Source: Pseudobutyrivibrio sp. ACV-2 (lineage in GTDB: Bacteria > Bacillota > Clostridia > Lachnospirales > Lachnospiraceae). From it: a DNA stretch of 64,000 bases. Positions within the stretch are counted from its first letter, which is position 1; each line of letters begins with the position of its first letter. The notes under the pieces were generated by a model. That model made no database searches. It saw only the letters and a program-made list of their open reading frames with translations, and was not told where the DNA came from. The translations under genes and the position numbers were made by a program. Shown piece after piece: positions 626 to 55,622 of the stretch. The stretch covers positions 1-64,000 of the forward strand of contig NZ_FNQZ01000004.1 of NCBI RefSeq assembly GCF_900107545.1. Reading direction: 5' to 3'.

Positions 626-3600
626 ATGAACAGTTTTTTTAATGCGAAAAAAATAATTGCATCACTGATGGTAACAGCGATTATGTTATCATCAGTTTCG
701 AATACTGCATATGGAGCTCAGACCAAAAATTTGGCAACTACAACTATAGAGACTGCAGTATCCGTAGAGACGCTATCTATTCAGGAGAAACTAAAGCTAT
801 ATGTGGACACCACAAAAAAGCAGTATGAAAATTATATGCTGCTAAAAGACTATAGATTTTTTGATCCTGAAAAATATTTATTAAATAATCCGGATGTTAT
901 GGCTGCGGCAGAGCAGTTTAAAGCTAAGGATTTAAATTCTTTTGCTCTGACTCATTATTTGTACTTTGGTATATTTGAGGGCAGAAGTTCACAAACGCCA
1001 TTTGATCCAATAGTAGCACTTGTGTCTGATTCAGACATATTTAACAAGCTACTAATCTCCAAAATTTTTACTCCAGAAAATGTATTTACATACTATTTTG
1101 AAAAAACTGGCAAGGATTCTACACAAGGGTTAATTCTTACATTTGATGCTACTCATACTTTGTTGGCTATTCCTGATCCAAAACTGACTGCCAGTGCAGT
1201 TCAGTATGATGGTGGTTCATCAGGTGGAGGCTCTTCTAGTGGCAGCGGTTCCTCAGGTGGTTCACAATCAACACAGGGGTCATCACAAGCGTCTGATTCT
1301 ACCACATCGTCAGAGGCTGAAAATATAAATCAGATTATTCCTACTGGCAGAAATTATGAGCTGATAAATAGTAAAGCTGAAAAAATTAAGGGTTACACGC
1401 TTTCATCTAACGGTACTACAGCCGATTCAGCTCTTAAGGTAACATTTTATGATTCAAACTATTCCAAGGCAAGGAAGTTGGCAGAGGGAAAAAACTACAC
1501 ATTTATGATTTATATGTGCGGTACAGATCAGGAAAGAAATAATAATTATAAAAGAGTTACAGCCCAGATTATGAGCCTTCTCAAAGGCGATATGAGCAAT
1601 GTTAATGTACTTTTGTGCGTTGGTGGAACCACAAGTTATGCTAACAAATATTTGCAGAATGATGTCTCTGATTTAAGATGTGGAATCTATTATATCAATC
1701 CAGCTGGTGTCAGCACAGAAGGGAAGGAGGTATTGGATTCCTTTCAATTAGGAAATAGATCAACGTTATCAGCAAAATTTAATAAAGTAATTAACGAAAA
1801 TACGTTAATAAAGCTTGCAACAACCGGTGCTCCTATAGATATGGGTGACCCGGGATTATTGGCTGGATTTATAGATTTTGGAACAAATCTATTTCCAGCT
1901 GCAGATTATGGACTTAGCCTGTCAAATCATGGCGGTGGCCTTGAAACAGGTATTTGTTCATCAGATAGCCTGATTAAAAATGGCAGGATTGTCGTAAATG
2001 GTACCAGCATTACTACAAATGAACTTGAATCAGCTTTAGATTCTACCGATTTGTACATGGATGAAACAGCAAATGCTGATGGTAAACTGGGATTGCTGTT
2101 TATGGATGCATGTCTTGAGGGTTCTACAGAGCTTGCAAACAATCTGAGAGACTATTACAGATTTATGATTGCCTCAGAAGAAATTACTATGAATTGGACA
2201 GATTATGAATCTCTAATTAATAAACTAAACACTGCTGTTAAAAATAATAATAGTGACCAGAATATTGCCATTGCTATAGCAGAAGATTTTGGAAACACTC
2301 CTTGGCATCGAGGGAAAAATAATGGACAGATGAGCAGCATAGTAGCCTATTCTTCAGATGCTATTGCAGAATCCTATAGAAGAATAAATGCGCTTTCTGA
2401 CCAGCTATCAACCGTATTTACGAGCAACTACTATTCAAACCAGTTGAGGGAACAGCTATTTACTGAGCTTAGAAAATCCATACTTTCCTGTCATATTGCA
2501 GCAGGAACCTGCTATGAAGACAATCTAAAAAACATGATCTCTGGAAATTCCTATGTAGATATAGGCGAGTTCATGATATTTTTAAATAAAAATGTGGGTA
2601 ACTTACTTACATCCCAAGCAGGACTTACGGCGGCAGATATATCTGCACTTAACGAAATTTCAGCCAGCATTAATAATGTTTTAAACAGCGGATTTTTGGT
2701 ATATCTTTCAATAGATAATTTTAAGGGCGCCGGTGGCTACGAGTTTTCAAACAATGCGCCAGGTCAGATTATAACTATGGCCAATCTTTCGGAATACGCC
2801 CCAAGTGGCTGGACCAAAATCCGTGGTAATAATGATTATTTATATGGAAGCTCATTGTACATCCCATTTGGAATGTCTGAGTCTGAATTCCTGCAAGGAG
2901 AGTTTTACAAGTATTATCATGGTTCAGAGTTAAATCCATACGTGGATTTCGTGCACAACTATTTGAGTTATTACAATGATAGTGTAAATGGATATGCAAA
3001 AAAGAGAATAGCGCTGGCAAATGAGCTGAATGATAATTTTAGCAAGCTGGTTAAACCTGCATCAGATTTTATGACACTTGAAGATGAAAACGGCAATGTG
3101 ACTCGCAAATTTATTAGTTTTGATATCGCACCAAGCTATGAAGCAGCAGGCCTTGCAACACCAGCAAACTCTACGGGAAGTCCAATGCTTGATATTCTAG
3201 AGACCCAAGGCTCTATTCAGGTATCAGCTGTGCGTAAGGAGTATTTCCCAACTAAAGACAATCAGGGAACTGTAGTGGTTGATATGATATGTGCTGAGGA
3301 GGATGTAAGCAGATATTCATATGCACTTGACAGCAATCGCATATACTTTAATGTGTCAGATTTGGCAGATAGTGTTATCCACGGATATGCACTTTCAGGA
3401 ACATTATTTGATAAATCTACTGGAGAAATCAAAACCGATGAACGAGGTAAAAGTGTCACAGATTGGCAGTTTGTACTGAAATCTTCTGCTGAAAAAAATA
3501 TAGATAAAAAGGTAGAACTGCTTCGCTCGGCAGGGGCTGATTCAGAGAGTCTGACAACAGATTATATAACTGTTTTGGGTGGCACCATTGCAGAGAACAA

Positions 3601-22681: not shown

Positions 22682-23161
22682 ATGGACGTTAAAGAAATAA
22701 AAGAGCTGCTTAAGGCTTTTGATGAAAGCGACAGTTCGTATTTACGAATTAAACAGGATGGTGTGGATATCAGACTTAGAAAGCCTGACGATGTAAAGCA
22801 GGTGGTTGTAGCAGCACCACAGACATCAGTGGTTAATCCTGCTGCAGTTCAGGTTGAGGCTGCAGCAGCTGAGCCAGTATCCACATCAGAGTCATCTGTA
22901 GAGGAAAAGCAGCAGCCAGTTGATGGTGAGATAGTAAAGGCACCACTTGTAGGTGTGTTCTATTCAGCTCCATCACCAGAGGAAAAGCCATACGTTCAGG
23001 TAGGGGATTCGGTTAAGGAAGGCCAGGTGCTTTGCCTTATCGAAGCCATGAAGATGATGAGTGAAATCACTTCACCTAAGGACGGTGTGGTAAAAGAAAT
23101 ATATGCAAAAAATCAGGATATTGTCGAGTTTGAACAAAATCTATTTTGCATAGGAGAGTAG
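22682..23161 (+). CDS. accB: Biotin carboxyl carrier protein of acetyl-CoA carboxylase
   Basis: A 159-residue BCCP. The N-terminal helix region (1-35) is followed by an Ala/Pro/Val/Glu-rich flexible linker (about 42-85) and the biotinyl domain, with the biotinylated Lys124 in IEAMKMMSE. It carries carboxybiotin from AccC to the AccA/AccD transferase. Positions 22737-22746 encode one copy of the dispersed palindrome CGTATTTACG. Confidence 0.95.
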   Translation: MDVKEIKELLKAFDESDSSYLRIKQDGVDIRLRKPDDVKQVVVAAPQTSVVNPAAVQVEAAAAEPVSTSESSVEEKQQPVDGEIVKAPLVGVFYSAPSPEEKPYVQVGDSVKEGQVLCLIEAMKMMSEITSPKDGVVKEIYAKNQDIVEFEQNLFCIGE

Positions 23162-27192: not shown

Positions 27193-27193
27193 A

Positions 27194-27345
27194 ACATTTA
27201 GATAACAAATCAGCTTGAAAAACATGGTAAGCGCGAGCAGGAGGGCCCCATGCCAAGTAAGGAGGGACCCCTTGGGGAGGATTCCTTGCTTGAGTATGGG
27301 AGGTGGCCTGCGGGAGCATGAAGAACTAGGAGGCTGATTTGTTTC
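27194..27345 (+). repeat. Structured intercistronic element A (fabH-fabK gap)
   Basis: A divergent member of the element family described in the findings. The 5' box is CATTTAGAT (27195-27203) and the 3' box GAACTAGG (27323-27330). An outer 11-bp perfect stem, AACAAATCAGC (27204-27214) / GCTGATTTGTT (27333-27343), encloses a long imperfect hairpin built from GCAGG/CCTGC, CCCAT/ATGGG, CAAG/CTTG, AAGGA/TCCTT and CCCC-TT-GGGG. In this copy the 3' box lies inside the outer stem, unlike the other three. Confidence 0.65.
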
Positions 27346-27365
27346 AAGAAGTAGAGGATTAAGCT

Positions 27366-28301
27366 ATGAAATTAAATGATTTAACAGGAACTAAATATCC
27401 TATTATTCAGGGTGGCATGGCAAACATCGCCACAGGTGCATTTGCAGCTGCAGTAAGCAATGCGGGAGCCCTTGGTCTTGTTGCTTCGGGCGGAATGAAT
27501 GCCGAGGCTTTGCGTGAGCAAATTAGAATTTGCAAAAGCAAAACCGACAAGCCATTTGGTGTAAATTTAATGCTGATGAATCCTGATGTAGATAACATCG
27601 CTCAGATGCTCATTGAGGAAAAGGTGCAGTTCATCACAACAGGTGCAGGTAACCCTGGAAAATATATGGCAGGCTGGAAAGCCATGGGTGCAAAGGTATT
27701 TCCAGTAGTTGCATCCGTTGCACTTGCAAAAATGATGGTAAGAGCTGGTGCTGATGCAGTAATCGCAGAGGGCGGTGAGTCAGGCGGTCATGTAGGCGAT
27801 ATGACTACAATGACACTGCTTCCACAGGTGGTTGCAGCAGTAGATGTACCTGTTATTGCAGCAGGCGGTATCGCCACAGGCGAGCAGATGGCAGCAGCTC
27901 TTCTTATGGGTGCCTGTGGCGTTCAGATTGGAACATGCTTACTTGTATCAGAAGAATGCCCAATCCACGAAAATTACAAAGCTGCCCTCATCAAGGCAAA
28001 AGATAACGCTACCACAGTAACAGGCCGCAGCCAGGGTGCACCAGTGCGTATCATCAAAAACGAAATGGCCCGCGAATACCTAAAGCTGGAAGCCGAAGGT
28101 GCCGGCCGAGAAGAACTTGAAAAAATCACACTAGGCGGCCTCCGCCGCGCCGTAGTTGACGGCGACATGATCCGCGGCTCCGTAATGGCCGGCCAAGTCT
28201 GCGGCCAACTCACAGCCATTCGTCCAGCATCATCGATTCTCGATGATATTTACGTAAATGCGAAGCGTACGTTAGAAAACGCTGTTAATATTGCAATTTA
28301 A
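27366..28301 (+). CDS. fabK: Enoyl-ACP reductase II (FMN-dependent)
   Basis: A 311-residue TIM-barrel flavoprotein that performs the last reduction of each elongation cycle. Motifs: YPIIQGGMANIATG at the N-terminus, GGESGGHVG (general acid/base region with His), and the FMN phosphate-binding stretch VPVIAAGGIATGEQ plus GACGVQIGT. It is the FabK type, not FabI, so it would be insensitive to triclosan as in other FabK organisms. From about 27957 the codons become rich in A/C third bases (71 of 90), then revert for the last 24 codons. Confidence 0.95.
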   Translation: MKLNDLTGTKYPIIQGGMANIATGAFAAAVSNAGALGLVASGGMNAEALREQIRICKSKTDKPFGVNLMLMNPDVDNIAQMLIEEKVQFITTGAGNPGKYMAGWKAMGAKVFPVVASVALAKMMVRAGADAVIAEGGESGGHVGDMTTMTLLPQVVAAVDVPVIAAGGIATGEQMAAALLMGACGVQIGTCLLVSEECPIHENYKAALIKAKDNATTVTGRSQGAPVRIIKNEMAREYLKLEAEGAGREELEKITLGGLRRAVVDGDMIRGSVMAGQVCGQLTAIRPASSILDDIYVNAKRTLENAVNIAI

Positions 28302-28303
28302 AA

Positions 28304-28474
28304 GATTTAGATGAGCCCTGCGGGTGGACACACGCAGCTTTGCAATGAGCCCGTAAAGCAACGTCGGCACTTAGCGAGTGGCTTGCCACGAGCTTAGTAC
28401 CGCTACGTTGCGACAAGAGCGAAAGCGCGGCGAATGCAAAGCTGTGTGTGGCCGCCTGCAGGGCGGACTAGGGG
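28304..28474 (+). repeat. Structured intercistronic element B (fabK-fabD gap)
   Basis: 5' box GATTTAGATGAGC (28304-28316), 3' box GCGGACTAGG (28463-28472). Nested stems: GCCCTGC (28315-28321) / GCAGGGC (28458-28464); ACACACGCAGCTTTGCA (28328-28344) / TGCAAAGCTGTGTGTG; GCAACGT (28358-28364) / ACGTTGC (28405-28411); then a GTGGC-TT-GCCAC tip and a separate GC-GAAA-GC hairpin. The final AGGGG serves as the ribosome site of fabD, 6 bases before its ATG. Confidence 0.75.
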
Positions 28475-28480
28475 TAAAAC

Positions 28481-29434
28481 ATGAAACTAGGATTTATATA
28501 CGCTGGCCAAGGTACACAAAAGGTAGGTATGGGCCAGGATTTCTACGATAAATACGAAGATTTTAGGGAGACTATTGACAACGCCACAGCCTCAGTTAAA
28601 AGCGTCACTGACATGGACGTTGCCAAACTTTCATTTGAGGGCCCAATCGAGCAGCTCTCAGACACAAGATACACTCAGCCAGCCATGGTAGCCTTCGCAA
28701 TTGGCGTAACAAAGCTTTTGCATAAGAAGGGCCTTAAGTCTGACTATACCTGTGGCCTTAGTCTGGGTGAGTATTCAGCACTTTACGAAGCAGGTGTTAT
28801 TGACGAGAGCACAATTATGGAGCTTATCGCAAAAAGAGGAAAATACATGTCAGAGACAGCTTCTGATAGAACTGTAAAGATGTGTGCAGTACTTGGGGCA
28901 GACCGAGAGGTTGTTCAGGAAACCTGCGATTATGTAAATAATTTTTACAATGGTGAATTTGTAGTTCAGCCTGCAAATTATAACTGCCCTGGACAGATTG
29001 TAATTTCCGGAGATGCACTTGCTATTGATAAGGCTAGTGCATGTCTGAAGGAAGCAGGAGCAAAGCGCATTTTACCTTTAAAGGTGAGCGGTCCATTCCA
29101 TACAAAGCTTATGAAGCCAGCTGGTGATAAGCTTGCAGAGGAATTTAAAAATGTAGATTTCAATCAGCCAAATTCCAAGGTGGTATTTAATTGCCTTGGC
29201 AAAGAAAAGTCAGAGGATGATAGTGTGGCAAAGCTTCTTGAGAAGCAGGTGCAGTCATCAGTTTATCTGGAGGATTCTATCAAATATATGGCTGATGAGG
29301 GTGTAGATACTATTATCGAAATCGGACCAGGCAAAGCCATCAGTAAGTTTATTAACAAGACAGTAGATGGCGTAAAGGTATATTCAATCGATACTGTAGA
29401 GGACTTTGAAAATATCGTGGAGGAATTGGCATGA
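28481..29434 (+). CDS. fabD: Malonyl-CoA:ACP transacylase
   Basis: A 317-residue enzyme that loads malonyl groups on ACP. The nucleophile is Ser94 in the CGLSLGEYSALYEAG motif, with YAGQGTQKVGMG near the N-terminus and a catalytic histidine in SGPFHTKLM. Its ribosome site comes from the end of element B. The stop overlaps the fabG start by 4 bases (ATGA). Confidence 0.96.
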   Translation: MKLGFIYAGQGTQKVGMGQDFYDKYEDFRETIDNATASVKSVTDMDVAKLSFEGPIEQLSDTRYTQPAMVAFAIGVTKLLHKKGLKSDYTCGLSLGEYSALYEAGVIDESTIMELIAKRGKYMSETASDRTVKMCAVLGADREVVQETCDYVNNFYNGEFVVQPANYNCPGQIVISGDALAIDKASACLKEAGAKRILPLKVSGPFHTKLMKPAGDKLAEEFKNVDFNQPNSKVVFNCLGKEKSEDDSVAKLLEKQVQSSVYLEDSIKYMADEGVDTIIEIGPGKAISKFINKTVDGVKVYSIDTVEDFENIVEELA

Positions 29435-30156
29435 GTGTTGCACTTGTAACAGGCGGAAGCCGAGGTATAGGAAAAGTTATTTCGTTGAATCTTGCTAAAG
29501 CAGGCTTTGATGTGGCTATCTGCTATTCAGGAAATGAAGCTGCAGTACTAGAGACAGTGACTGAGTGTAAGGAACAGGGCGTGCAGGCTATCAGTGTTAA
29601 GGCTGATGTAAGCAATATCGATGATGTAAATGCCATGTTCGAGGAAGTTAAGTCTTCGCTTGGTGCTGTAGAGGTGCTTGTAAATAATGCAGGGATTACA
29701 AAGGATGGCCTTTTAATCCGCATGAGTGAAGCTGATTTTGATTCAGTTATCGATATAAATTTGAAGGGAACCTTCCTGTGCACAAAGGCTGCTATAAAGG
29801 ATATGATGAAGGCCAGACATGGACGTATCATCAATATCACTTCAATAGTAGGTGTGGAAGGAAATCCTGGACAGGCAAATTATTGCGCAAGTAAGGCAGG
29901 AATTATCGGATTTACGAAGTCAGTTGCAAAGGAGTATGGCGCAAAGGGGATTACCGTAAATGCGGTAGCTCCAGGATTTATTCAGACAGCAATGACAGAT
30001 AAGCTTCCTGACAATGTGAAGGAAGCATATTTAAAGCAGATTCCAGTTGGCCGTTTTGGACAGCCAGAGGATATTGCAAATGTAGTTGAATTTTTAGCAT
30101 CAGAAAAGGCAGCTTATGTCACAGGACAGGTTGTTGAAGTTACTGGAGGTATGTAA
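29431..30156 (+). CDS. fabG: 3-oxoacyl-ACP reductase
   Basis: A 241-residue short-chain dehydrogenase. NADPH-binding TGGSRGIGK at 7-15, NNAG at 85-88, and the catalytic Ser138, Tyr151 and Lys155 (YCASKAG). It reduces 3-oxoacyl-ACP. The stop overlaps the fabF start by one base (TAATG), a translational coupling. Its codon use at the 3' end is ordinary (22 of the last 51 third bases are A or C), a useful contrast with fabF. Confidence 0.96.
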   Translation: MSVALVTGGSRGIGKVISLNLAKAGFDVAICYSGNEAAVLETVTECKEQGVQAISVKADVSNIDDVNAMFEEVKSSLGAVEVLVNNAGITKDGLLIRMSEADFDSVIDINLKGTFLCTKAAIKDMMKARHGRIINITSIVGVEGNPGQANYCASKAGIIGFTKSVAKEYGAKGITVNAVAPGFIQTAMTDKLPDNVKEAYLKQIPVGRFGQPEDIANVVEFLASEKAAYVTGQVVEVTGGM

Positions 30157-31388
30157 TGAGAAGAGTAGTGATTACTGGAATGGGTACAGTCAATCCACTT
30201 GCAAATAGTGTCGAGGCTACCTGGGATGCAGTTAAGGAAGGCAAATGTGGTATTGCACCAATAACACGTTTCGATACAACAGATTTTAAGGTAAAGCTTG
30301 CCGGTGAGGTAAAGAACTTCGACCCTACAGAAGTGCTTGATCCAAAGGAAGCAAAGCGAATGGATGTATATAGCCAGTATGCCTGCGCAGCAGCCAAAGA
30401 AGCAATGGCAGATTCCGGCCTTGAAATGGAAAAGGAAAATGCAGATAGAGTAGGTTGTATCGTATCATCAGGAATCGGTGGACTTTCAACAATCGCTGAG
30501 GAGCATACAAAGGGAGAGACAAAGGGCTATAACAGAATTTCTCCTTTCTTTATTCCTATGTCTATCAGCAACATGGCAGCAGGTCAGATTGCTATCATGT
30601 TTGGACTTAAGGGTATCTGCACATCGGTAGTAACAGCCTGCGCCAGCTCAAACAATGCCATTGGCGATTCCTTCCATAGAATACGTGATGGCTATGAAGA
30701 TGTAATGGTTTGTGGCGGTGCAGAAGGTGTGGTTATGCCACTTGCCATCGGAGGCTTCCAGTCAATGAAAGCACTTTGCACCAGTGAGGACCCAAATCGT
30801 GCATCTATCCCATTTGATAAAGAAAGACATGGTTTTGTACTTGGCGAAGGTGCAGGAATTCTTGTTATAGAAGAGCTTGAGCATGCCAAGGCTCGTGGCG
30901 CAAAAATCTATGCAGAAATCGTAGGCTACGGAACAAACTGCGATGCATATCATATCACAGCTCCAAACCCAGAAGGGGAAGGCGGCGCAAAGTGTATGAC
31001 ACTTGCCGTAAAGGATGCAGGTCTTGAAATGACTGACGTAGACTACATCAATGCACATGGAACCAGCACAAGCCTTAACGATGCAGGTGAAACCCTTGCA
31101 ATCAAAAAGGCTTTTGGCGACCACGCATACAAACTCATGGTAAGCTCAACCAAATCCATGACAGGCCACTTACTTGGTGCAGCAGGAGCAGTAGAAGCAA
31201 TCATCACAACCCTTGCCCTCAAAAACAGCTTCGTCCCAGCTACAATCAACTATCGCGAAAAAGACGAAGCCTGCGACTTAGACATCGTTCCAAACCAAGG
31301 CCGCAACGCCGACATCAACGTAGCGTTATCAAACGCACTTGGTTTCGGAGGCCACAACGCGTCAATCGTATTTAAGAAGTATGCGTAA
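30156..31388 (+). CDS. fabF: 3-oxoacyl-ACP synthase II
   Basis: A 410-residue elongation condensing enzyme. Catalytic Cys162 (VVTACASSNNAIG), His301 (NAHGTSTSLND) and His338 (KSMTGHLLGAAGAVE). No FabA/FabB or FabM-type isomerase lies in the cluster, so how unsaturated acids are made is not shown here. The last 89 codons have A or C in third position in 72 cases, directly ahead of element C. Confidence 0.96.
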   Translation: MRRVVITGMGTVNPLANSVEATWDAVKEGKCGIAPITRFDTTDFKVKLAGEVKNFDPTEVLDPKEAKRMDVYSQYACAAAKEAMADSGLEMEKENADRVGCIVSSGIGGLSTIAEEHTKGETKGYNRISPFFIPMSISNMAAGQIAIMFGLKGICTSVVTACASSNNAIGDSFHRIRDGYEDVMVCGGAEGVVMPLAIGGFQSMKALCTSEDPNRASIPFDKERHGFVLGEGAGILVIEELEHAKARGAKIYAEIVGYGTNCDAYHITAPNPEGEGGAKCMTLAVKDAGLEMTDVDYINAHGTSTSLNDAGETLAIKKAFGDHAYKLMVSSTKSMTGHLLGAAGAVEAIITTLALKNSFVPATINYREKDEACDLDIVPNQGRNADINVALSNALGFGGHNASIVFKKYA

Positions 31389-31433
31389 CTAATCCAATAC
31401 GTAGAGGTACAAGGATTTAATTGAAACTGAAAT

Positions 31434-31655
31434 CATTTAGATGAGCTGATGTTACACAGGCTCAAAAACTGTAGCCAATTTATTTAAGAAGAAGTTTTCA
31501 TCTTTAACACTACAGTGAGCCAGTAGCTGTCAAGAATGTGTACCTATTTTTGAGGAGTATAGCGAAAGCGATCTCAAAAATAGGTACACATTCTTGATAG
31601 CGTAACTGGCGGGCTAAAGGTATTCGCAGCCTGTGTAATATCAGCGGACTAGGAG
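31434..31655 (+). repeat. Structured intercistronic element C (fabF-fabZ gap)
   Basis: 5' box CATTTAGATGAGC (31434-31446), 3' box GCGGACTAGG (31644-31653). Outer stem GCTGAT-TTACACAGGCT near 31445-31462 pairs with AGCCTGTGTAA-ATCAGC ending at 31645. An inner arm is a very long hairpin: CCAGT and TCAAGAATGTGTACCTATTT (from about 31530) pair with AAATAGGTACACATTCTTGA and ACTGG; its loop carries AGCGAAAGCG. The terminal AGGAG is the ribosome site of fabZ. No open frame of useful length is present. Confidence 0.75.
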
Positions 31656-31660
31656 CATAT

Positions 31661-34276: not shown

Positions 34277-34295
34277 CTATATGAATTAAATAGGA

Positions 34296-34404
34296 AATCT
34301 TCAGGGCAGGGTGTGAGTCCCTACCGGTGGTATAGCCCACGAGCCGCAAGGCATGATTCGGTGTGATTCCGAAGCCGACAGTATAGTCTGGATGGAAGAA
34401 GATG
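34296..34404 (+). ncRNA. FMN riboswitch (RFN element)
   Basis: The conserved RFN landmarks appear in order: ATCTTCAGGGCAGGGTG, TCCCTACCGGTGGTA, AGCCCACGAGCCGC, GATTCGGTGTGATTCCGAAG, GCCGACAGT and the closing GGATGGAAGAAGAT. It binds flavin mononucleotide. A terminator hairpin follows, and its 5' arm (GCCCTGA, 34427-34433) can also pair with TCAGGGC at 34301-34307 inside the aptamer, an obvious antiterminator. So FMN should shut off the downstream riboflavin importer. Confidence 0.96.
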
Positions 34405-34426
34405 TACAGTTATTTTAGTACTTGAT

Positions 34427-34623: not shown

Positions 34624-35259
34624 ATGGATACAACACAATTTACAGGAACAGCGTCACAGACGAAACCAGCAAAAAGAGTAAACGTAAGAAACATGACAGT
34701 AACTGCAATGCTTTCAGCAATCGCATTTGTCCTTATGTTTTTAGACACAGCAGTGCCTATCATGCCTAGCTTCATCAAGCTCGATGTGTCAGAGCTTCCA
34801 GCACTTGTAGCATCATTTGCACTAGGCCCAGTATATGGCGTTATCGTATGCCTTATCAAAAACATTCTTCATCTGTTCATTACACAGACAGGTGGCGTAG
34901 GAGAGCTTTCCAACTTTATCCTTGGTGTAGGCTTTGTTCTTCCAGCAGGACTTATCTACTACCACAAAAAGACAAAGAGAAACGCAATCCTTGGAGCAGT
35001 GGTTGGTGCATTTATCATGGCAGCCATCAGCTTCCCATCAAACTTATTTATCGTATATCCGGTATACTACAACTTCATGCCAAAGGATGTAATCGTTGCA
35101 GCATACCAGGCAGTAGCACCATTCGCTCACATCCATTCAATCGAGCAGTGCCTGTTACTTTTCAACGTACCATTTACATTTGTAAAGGGACTTATTTCAG
35201 CAATCATCACAATGCTTATTTACCAGCCACTTCGTCCATTGCTTAAGGGAAATAAGTAA
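34624..35259 (+). CDS. ribU: Riboflavin ECF transporter substrate-binding subunit
   Basis: A 211-residue membrane protein of the ECF S-component type with about six helices. The segment MTVTAMLSAIAFVLMFLDTA, then PSFIKLDVSELPALVASFAL and GPVYGVIVCLIKN, is characteristic of RibU. It captures riboflavin and works with a shared EcfA/EcfT energizing module encoded elsewhere. The FMN riboswitch upstream independently supports riboflavin as substrate. AAGGGAGG precedes the start. Its stop codon abuts the stop of the convergent AraC gene. Confidence 0.95.
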   Translation: MDTTQFTGTASQTKPAKRVNVRNMTVTAMLSAIAFVLMFLDTAVPIMPSFIKLDVSELPALVASFALGPVYGVIVCLIKNILHLFITQTGGVGELSNFILGVGFVLPAGLIYYHKKTKRNAILGAVVGAFIMAAISFPSNLFIVYPVYYNFMPKDVIVAAYQAVAPFAHIHSIEQCLLLFNVPFTFVKGLISAIITMLIYQPLRPLLKGNK

Positions 35260-41146: not shown

Positions 41147-41175
41147 TTAGATCTAACAGATAAATAAAACATTAC

Positions 41176-41217
41176 AGAAATCCGTTTGCAGTCCTTTGCA
41201 GGCGGATTTCTTTTTTT
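41176..41217 (+). terminator. Rho-independent terminator after the SPFH gene
   Basis: Stem AGAAATCCG / CGGATTTCT with further inner pairing (TTTGCA region), then T7. Confidence 0.9.
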
Positions 41218-41307
41218 GATTGTATTAACACCCGCGGACAAATGTCGGTGTGACGCAAACTTTTTGTTGTAATATGAGAAAAACTATAGTATAGTATCAG
41301 AGGTAAT

Positions 41308-41387
41308 CACTTTAGCGGATTAAAGTGAAACTTCTGGTACTATTCTTATTGAGTTTTATTTTAAAAATAGAACATTTGTGCTATACT
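41308..41387 (+). promoter_or_regulatory. rarA upstream region: inverted repeat and -10 box
   Basis: The 284-bp gap before rarA has no gene. It contains an inverted repeat CACTTTA / TAAAGTG with a 6-base spacer (41308-41327) and a TATACT (41382-41387) that is a likely -10 box. The -35 is not clear. No structured RNA is evident otherwise. Confidence 0.35.
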
Positions 41388-41430
41388 GTTAATGCAATTT
41401 TCAGTAACGTAAGAATTAGGAAGGTATCAC

Positions 41431-44133: not shown

Positions 44134-44152
44134 TTAAATACTTTTGTTAATC

Positions 44153-44183
44153 AGGCGCTCTCTAATTTTAGAGGGCGCTTTTA
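44153..44183 (+). terminator. Rho-independent terminator after the aminotransferase gene
   Basis: Stem AGGCGCTCTCTAA / TTAGAGGGCGCT (one mismatch), then T4. Confidence 0.85.
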
Positions 44184-44251
44184 TAAAATAAAAAATAGCA
44201 TTTATAATTTATTATGTGGATAAAAACAGTGAGTTAAGGTTTCAAGTGTAC

Positions 44252-44299
44252 AAAAAAGTCCGAAGATGGTAAACTTATTGTAATATTTTGGGACTTTTT
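44252..44299 (+). promoter_or_regulatory. Inverted repeat in the proC leader
   Basis: AAAAAGTCC and GGACTTTTT are perfect inverse copies about 30 bases apart, 26 bases before proC. The right arm ends in T5, so it resembles a weak attenuator or terminator with a long loop. No T-box or known riboswitch core was seen. Confidence 0.35.
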
Positions 44300-44324
44300 G
44301 TTGTAGGAACTGGAGGTTATACAA

Positions 44325-55517: not shown

Positions 55518-55622
55518 CATCTAGATGAGCTGGTAGGTAACAATGATTAGGTCTCTTAAGGGAGACATTCTAAGTCGACCGTAGAGACCTAATCATTGTT
55601 ACCGTAACCGGCGGACTATAGG
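55518..55622 (+). repeat. Structured element D, upstream of the MFS gene
   Basis: 5' box CATCTAGATGAGC (55518-55530), 3' box GCGGACTATAGG (55611-55622). Outer stem GCTGGT / ACCGGC and a perfect 20-bp inner stem GGTAACAATGATTAGGTCTC / GAGACCTAATCATTGTTACC, loop about 28 bases. The boxes match elements B and C in the fab operon while the stem sequence is unrelated. Here the downstream start codon is 45 bases away with its own GGGGGAG. Confidence 0.75.

Follow-up and report, generated by a model that had tools for sequence, protein, structure and literature searches.

Composite hairpin repeats with copy-specific stems in the fab operon gaps of Pseudobutyrivibrio and elsewhere in the genus

The first 64,000 nucleotides (nt) of contig NZ_FNQZ01000004.1 of Pseudobutyrivibrio sp. 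ACV-2 (RefSeq assembly GCF_900107545.1, forward strand; hereafter the window) carry an acc–fab operon with three large gaps, each holding a folded non-coding element (A, B and C); a fourth element, D, lies outside the operon (Table 1). They belong to a large repeat family that is real and, as far as literature searches show, undescribed: no paper on it turned up. We consider these elements likely to be composite non-coding interspersed repeats comparable to BOX and Correia elements, mobile, and with a transcribed hairpin under selection. Directly observed are the dispersal of the copies, their ends at the boxes, covariation, a G·U asymmetry that depends on gene context, and repeated changes in the occupancy of the same gaps. 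The original prediction, made from the window alone, had proposed an undescribed structured RNA or a miniature mobile element, and it agrees with the many dispersed copies, the strong covariation, the lack of an Rfam match and the sequence identity that ends at the boxes. The family is set apart by stems that are free in sequence and kept in pairing, with only the loops conserved, together with the context-dependent G·U asymmetry. Each genome thus offers many natural replicates in which a single RNA architecture is built on different stems.

A repeat family of one genus and its modules

The copies were sought with a covariance model (R1) of 21 base pairs, built from seven seed copies of the genome itself, including the window copy at 55519 (five of 12 aligned copies were left out of the seed). 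At least 72 matches at E < 1e-6, the seven seeds included, were found in this genome among the best 150 of 668 candidates scored, and they aligned as 76 distinct rows of 84–158 nt, that is, as many dispersed, short, non-coding copies. A second genome, G003 (loci are numbered L and genomes G hereafter), gave at least 112 matches at E ≤ 1e-4 among the best 150 of 742 candidates. When 41 genomes were searched, the model matched 24 of the 25 from within the genus and none of the 16 from outside it, so that further copies do exist in related genomes. Wider draws, which overlap with each other and with that of the genus and are not summed, returned nothing from other genera: R1 matched one of 120 genomes in a draw of one genome per genus of the family, namely the genome itself (0 of 119 other genera; best 33 candidates per genome), eight of 295 in the order, every one of them a Pseudobutyrivibrio (best 13 candidates per genome), and one of 196 in the class, again the genome itself (best 20 candidates per genome). 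The repeat family was found here in one genus only, Pseudobutyrivibrio.

A second model, R2, represents the core of element B (seven seeds, including window B) and matches 26 of 29 genomes of the genus. A pattern for the core of element A has 52 matches in 17 of these 29 genomes, and the reversed pattern has none. Three genomes of about 2.3 Mb (G004, G007 and G021; 82, 86 and 83% complete) hold just eight, one and no R1 matches, respectively, and G001 (2.2 Mb, 81% complete) holds 45; one lineage of the genus may thus have few copies of the repeat. The simple pattern YTAGATGAGC was discarded: many of its 47 matches (two for the reversed control) are coding by eye (LDEP, Walker-B-like), so its count is not an element count and the covariance model was used instead. 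Among viral contigs, six stretches match a 15-base pattern exactly, none of them with the fold of the element by eye; in one (L348) the pattern sits in a different hairpin. As for known RNAs, an Rfam scan judged by gathering score and E-value placed no family at gathering score over the elements, in keeping with the earlier statement that no named family was recognised. The sub-threshold matches that overlap elements (e.g. mir-2208 and mir-236) are far below the gathering score.

An R1-type copy is a long hairpin with a box-pair foot, a second conserved loop, a private stem and a cap, of which there are several interchangeable kinds; in related elements an A or B core is found instead. The alignments and folds show, in order, an outer helix UAG/CUA, a loop AUGA/GGA, a helix GCNNGU/ACNNGC, the loop A/GUA (from GUAG...CGUAAC), the private stem and then the cap. 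The type I cap is UUAAGCGARRCAUUCYNAGYYGAGCGUAG, with GA/GA opposite each other, and the type II cap is GAGUAUAGCGAAAGCGAU, GNRA-like. Both asymmetric loops (AUGA/GGA and A/GUA) rank among the most conserved columns. The AUGA loop recurs in the B core, opposite GAA, and the predicted fold of this core contains a three-way junction. Some copies of the genome (e.g. L071, L176, L180 and L204) have a second foot, AUAGC...GCGAGCCA..CCUA, in place of AUGAGC/GCGGACUA. The inner modules are exchangeable between the same boxes, where a type I cap, a type II cap, a B core (as in window B) or an A core (as in L045) can be found. Some arrangements are multiple: on the reverse strand of L029, about 400 bases hold four hairpin copies head-to-tail with short linkers, a tandem amplification; L251 has two B cores back to back, at 2358-2470 (−) and 2518-2631 (+); and G006, G015 and G426 each have an A core motif with a B core about 60 bases away on the other strand.

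In the list of open reading frames (ORFs), the other gaps of the acc–fab operon range from −4 to 61 nt (leaving aside the ORF at 23146, listed from an upstream TTG start that would overlap its neighbour), so the compact operon with three large gaps is as originally described. Each of these gaps is far more stable when folded than shuffled sequence, with z-scores of −4.5 for A, −7.5 for B and −11.1 for C. The box pair had been placed in all three. This holds for B and C: without mismatches, TTTAGATGAGC occurs in the window only at 28306-28316 and 31436-31446, and GCGGACTAGG only at 28463-28472 and 31644-31653. It does not hold for A, which had rightly been called divergent: it lacks the exact boxes and the ATGAGC/GCGG collar and has another conserved core (27229-27318). 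With two mismatches allowed, TTTAGATGAGC has 35 matches compared with 27.7 in shuffled sequence (11 of 100 shuffles reach as many) and GCGGACTAGG has 19 compared with 21.1; as neither pattern rises above the shuffles, a box by itself is no evidence. Element B scores only 19 bits with R1. The 3′ box does carry the ribosome site of fabD in B and of fabZ in C, as claimed; by eye this is so in few of the 76 copies of the genome. The proposed pairing of TTTAG with CTAGG also recurs: in two genomes, 71% and 75% of the cells of the outer helix are paired, with both-side changes at each of its three pairs, yet every other helix is paired more often in both genomes. Finally, ten of the 24 window gaps of at least 70 nt fold strongly (z below −4); four of these are the elements, and the other six hold terminator-like hairpins by eye.

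Table 1. Positions of the elements and of the gaps that hold them, within the window
Feature	Position	Strand	Remarks
fabH–fabK gap	27193-27365		173 nt
Element A, fabH–fabK gap	27196-27345	+	fold, inverted repeat
Element A, private outer stem	27204-27214 / 27333-27343	+	surrounds conserved core
A core	AAGCGCGAGCAGGA 27229-27242 ... GGCCTGCGGGAGCA 27305-27318	+	own inner stem
fabK–fabD gap	28302-28480		179 nt
Element B, fabK–fabD gap	28306-28472	+	boxes TTTAGATGAGC / GCGGACTAGG; fold, inverted repeat, patterns
Element B, 30-nt outer arms	28315-28344 / 28435-28464	+	
B core, ATGAGCCC ... GAGCGAAAGCG.GGCGAAT	28335-28444	+	R2 109.9 bits (copy is in seed)
fabF–fabZ gap	31389-31660		272 nt
Element C, outer hairpin, fabF–fabZ gap	31436-31653	+	boxes and arms 31445-31462 / 31628-31645
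Complete second copy nested inside C, type II cap GAGTATAGCGAAAGCGAT	31510-31619	+	R1 69.8 bits, outside seed
Stem of the copy nested in C	31526-31554 / 31573-31601	+	inverted repeat
Element D, outside the operon, type I cap CTTAAGGGAGACATTCTAAGTCGACCGTAG	55519-55621	+	R1 109.8 bits (copy is in seed); fold

Private stems, covariation and gene context

That the stems differ from copy to copy and remain self-complementary was confirmed by pairing the arms of each element with those of the other copies. The duplex between the two arms of the same copy has a mean of −16.9 kcal/mol compared with −4.3 kcal/mol across copies, and 53 of the 56 parsed copies lie beyond 95% of the cross pairs (20 of the 76 elements, the arms of which were not parsed, are left out). 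For B cores (R2 matches, with longer arms) the means are −24.5 and −7.1 kcal/mol, with 32 of 33 past that limit, and for A cores −18.1 and −9.7 kcal/mol, with 11 of 16. The test is weaker with shorter or poorly anchored arms (4 of 16 for the outer and 8 of 16 for the inner arms of A, and 1 of 11 for B, where the 11 stretches included non-B stretches).

Strong covariation is found in both genomes. In the 76 rows of the genome itself, 92.7% of the cells are paired (64.6% when shuffled), all 21 pairs have both-side changes, and covariation scores 0.686 compared with 0.165 (sd 0.011) for shuffled and 0.04–0.10 for slid alignments. The G003 alignment (79 distinct rows in fetched loci, of the 112 matches) has 86.3% of its cells paired compared with 68.8%, both-side changes at 17 of 21 pairs (a number reached by two of 500 shuffles) and a score of 0.463 compared with 0.153 (sd 0.008) shuffled and 0.02–0.11 slid. 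It should be noted that fitting the alignments to the structure makes such counts look better than they are; the arm-swap test is free of that bias. Substitutions between orthologous gaps can also be followed one by one. The fabK–fabD gaps of L109 and L117 differ by nine substitutions in 201 nt, three of them unpaired and six forming three compensatory pairs; their fabF–fabZ gaps have seven differences, including three unpaired and one C–G to U–G change; and in the fabK–fabD gaps of L109 and L100 all five differences are unpaired.

Most copies lie between genes that are read in the same direction as the element. With flanking genes taken from ORFs of at least 80 aa rather than from annotation, and signed in the direction of the element, the contexts in the genome itself are ++ in 57 copies, −− in seven, +− in six and −+ in six; in G003 they are ++ in 52, −− in 11, +− in 13 and −+ in two; and the 33 B cores give 22 ++, six −− and three +−, with two left without a call. 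The G·U pairs follow this context. In the 117 elements with a co-oriented downstream gene, 241 G·U pairs form on the box strand versus 53 on the opposite strand, compared with 44 versus 33 in the 37 elements in other contexts (Fisher p = 1.4e-5; permutation by element p = 4e-4; one of 155 elements was dropped for want of an ORF on one side). Each genome shows the difference separately, with 134:34 versus 18:15 in the genome itself and 107:19 versus 26:18 in G003. This asymmetry, which is less open than the sense bias to an effect of replication, is simply explained by selection on RNA pairing in the transcript.

Spread, occupancy of the fab gaps and nesting

The copies resemble one another only within their boundaries. 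The closest pair (L061 and L067) is 95% identical over the element, with identities of 0.30 and 0.33 in the 30-nt flanks. Pairs of at least 0.78 identity number 57 of 2850 in the genome, and in the 14 pairs listed the flank identity is 0.20–0.47, one tandem pair excepted (0.60/0.73). Occupancy of the fab gaps changes between relatives. Gaps of at least 50 nt occur in 13, 10 and 11 of 24 rows for fabH–fabK, fabK–fabD and fabF–fabZ, respectively, and several species have fab gaps of just 0–13 nt. On the 24-row tree this pattern requires at least eight, six and seven changes, gains and losses pooled, where occupancy means a gap of at least 50 nt rather than a given element and the tree is a quick one with SH-aLRT support only (L110 and L116, which miss genes, are left out). 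Even close relatives differ: the fabH–fabK gap is 170 nt in L095 and 7 nt in L101, and the three gaps are 194/24/183 nt in L094 and 29/15/17 nt in L104. Apparent scars with a single box are seen by eye in L103, L104, L111, L095 and L101. Close relatives that have or lack an element at the same place in an operon offer a ready test of the effect of intergenic hairpins on expression.

This patchiness bears on the suggestion of the original prediction that the elements set the relative output of the fab genes. A dedicated cis-regulatory RNA, acting through stability or ribosome-site access, would fit the filling of all three large gaps, the ribosome sites within the 3′ boxes of B and C, and the fact that the same gaps are often long in relatives. 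We nevertheless regard it as very improbable: the occupancy has changed many times, the cap or core at one gap varies between species (by eye), and most copies of the genome lie elsewhere. A conserved fab-dosing role is therefore not supported. In a sugar/capsule-type operon of G019 (L248, 1-18901, contig G019:C40; Pfam names for ten proteins), R1 or R2 matches occupy eight of the 11 gaps listed, which together with the patchy fab gaps argues against gene-specific regulation. A structured gap in a Pseudobutyrivibrio operon is thus not necessarily a gene-specific regulator. L247, L249, L250 and L253 likewise contain several matches each to R1 and R2.

We favour instead mobile, transcribed repeats. 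Such elements would spread as DNA, probably by a trans-acting route; copies transcribed together with their operon would fold into rods, which selection on the transcript would help to keep paired. An inserted element would separate tightly coupled genes and may replace a ribosome site, and by analogy to hairpins such as Correia elements the rod could serve as a double-stranded substrate for RNase III-type processing. Several results weigh against this explanation. There is no clear target duplication of the MITE kind: flanking direct repeats are in weak excess, those of at least 8 nt being found at 14 of 76 copies (permuted mean 5.2, largest 13), some of these being tandem or nested copies, and the mean length of the flanking repeats is 6.2 compared with 5.7 permuted (largest permuted mean 6.6). 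No flanking transposase was found for the single family tried, Y1_Tnp, with the R1 model in the genome itself, where the fetched loci of the two Y1_Tnp matches (5302 bases) hold no R1 match. The sense bias is confounded with the replication strand: at co-directional G003 loci the genes are on the leading strand in 61 of 63 cases (judged from the nearest of 20 GC-skew samples), so the bias could stem from replication, and the two informative loci point one each way. Transcription-linked mutation could be another source of the G·U asymmetry. Finally, the stems are as stable in antisense (−46.5 kcal/mol) as in ++ contexts (−46.3 kcal/mol), hence selection on the transcript is not the sole force that keeps them paired.

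Two other explanations draw on these same results. The elements could be DNA-level structures, foldback ends for a single-strand transposase of the REP/IS200-605 kind, with pairing needed in single-stranded DNA. They are indeed palindromes with conserved mismatches at fixed places, the leading strand explains the G003 orientation as well as the genes do, and the stems stay stable in antisense contexts; but the G·U asymmetry depends on the transcription context, the GNRA-like caps and the three-way junction look RNA-like, and both Y1-transposase loci are free of R1 matches, which makes this explanation unlikely in our judgement. Alternatively, pairing might persist in the absence of selection, through template switching from one arm to the other or conversion among copies. 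The three compensatory changes of L109/L117 lie within 4 bp, as if from one copying event, and the persistence of stems in antisense contexts would also be expected. On the other hand, copying of one arm from the other would remove the two asymmetric loops, which are highly conserved, and it predicts no sense-linked G·U excess; we hold it to be no likelier than the DNA-level explanation. An open, Y1-type transposase-like frame of 217 aa was noted at L215 (G000:C4:3195-3524, reverse strand), a locus without an R1 match.

Within the favoured explanation of mobile, transcribed repeats, nesting hints at how the rods may grow. Nested copies are found in element C and in L072, L075, L076, L082, L084 and L192. 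In the fabK–fabD gap, L115 and L097 have a common outer hairpin, the loop of which holds a B core, with ATATA on both sides, in L097 only. L100 and L109 each have two B copies that agree in their core and in about 13 bp of stem, within different self-complementary outer stems. Inverted matches between the flanks of the copies in the genome average 6.4 compared with 5.5 permuted (largest permuted mean 5.9), and the longest of them mark outer hairpins around a copy. It is conceivable, if rather doubtful, that conserved cores such as A and B enter hairpins that already exist, at their apical loops, so that rods within mRNAs grow by nesting and stay paired under selection on the transcript; private stems would then be inherited from the host hairpin. 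A deletion fits the difference between L115 and L097 equally well, and excision or recombination between copies may account for the nesting in place of loop entry.

Comparison with known systems and other structured gaps of the window

Copies of interspersed hairpin repeats generally have sequence in common. REP/BIME palindromes, which go with REP-associated tyrosine transposases (RAYT), are imperfect intergenic hairpins in many copies. The present elements resemble them in these respects but do not flank a Y1-transposase gene at the two Y1_Tnp loci of the genome, as judged with R1. Like cis-acting RNAs of Rfam, they consist of conserved loops joined by variable stems, but unlike them no element is covered by a family at gathering score.

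The BOX elements of Streptococcus pneumoniae are close in organization: they too are composite interspersed repeats with end boxes, variable inner modules, predicted transcript hairpins and mutual insertion (PMC3049150). They are described as almost restricted to one species and its near kin, S. suis having a related set, and were judged to be parasitic; they are over-represented where genes converge, and 60.8% of them are on the leading strand (PMC3049150). By contrast, most copies here lie in sense between co-directional genes (raw counts, with no background of gap types), and the stems are private to each copy with strong covariation, the comparison with BOX being one of organization. Correia elements (CREE) of Neisseria are over 120 inverted-repeat elements that mostly occupy the same places in two strains, the notable exceptions being taken as mobility, and they can bind RNase III and then be cleaved or protected (PMC2649163). 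The present family shares with them inverted repeats of varying placement; CREE combine an inverted repeat with a conserved core, whereas here the arms are conserved in pairing and not in sequence.

The window has other structured gaps. Those at 41147-41430 and 44134-44324 combine a terminator-like hairpin with a second one, for which no model used here accounts. At 34293-34407 there is an FMN riboswitch (Rfam RF00050, 112.2 bits) upstream of the ORF at 34624-35259, which, from its sequence, may be a candidate riboflavin-type transporter.

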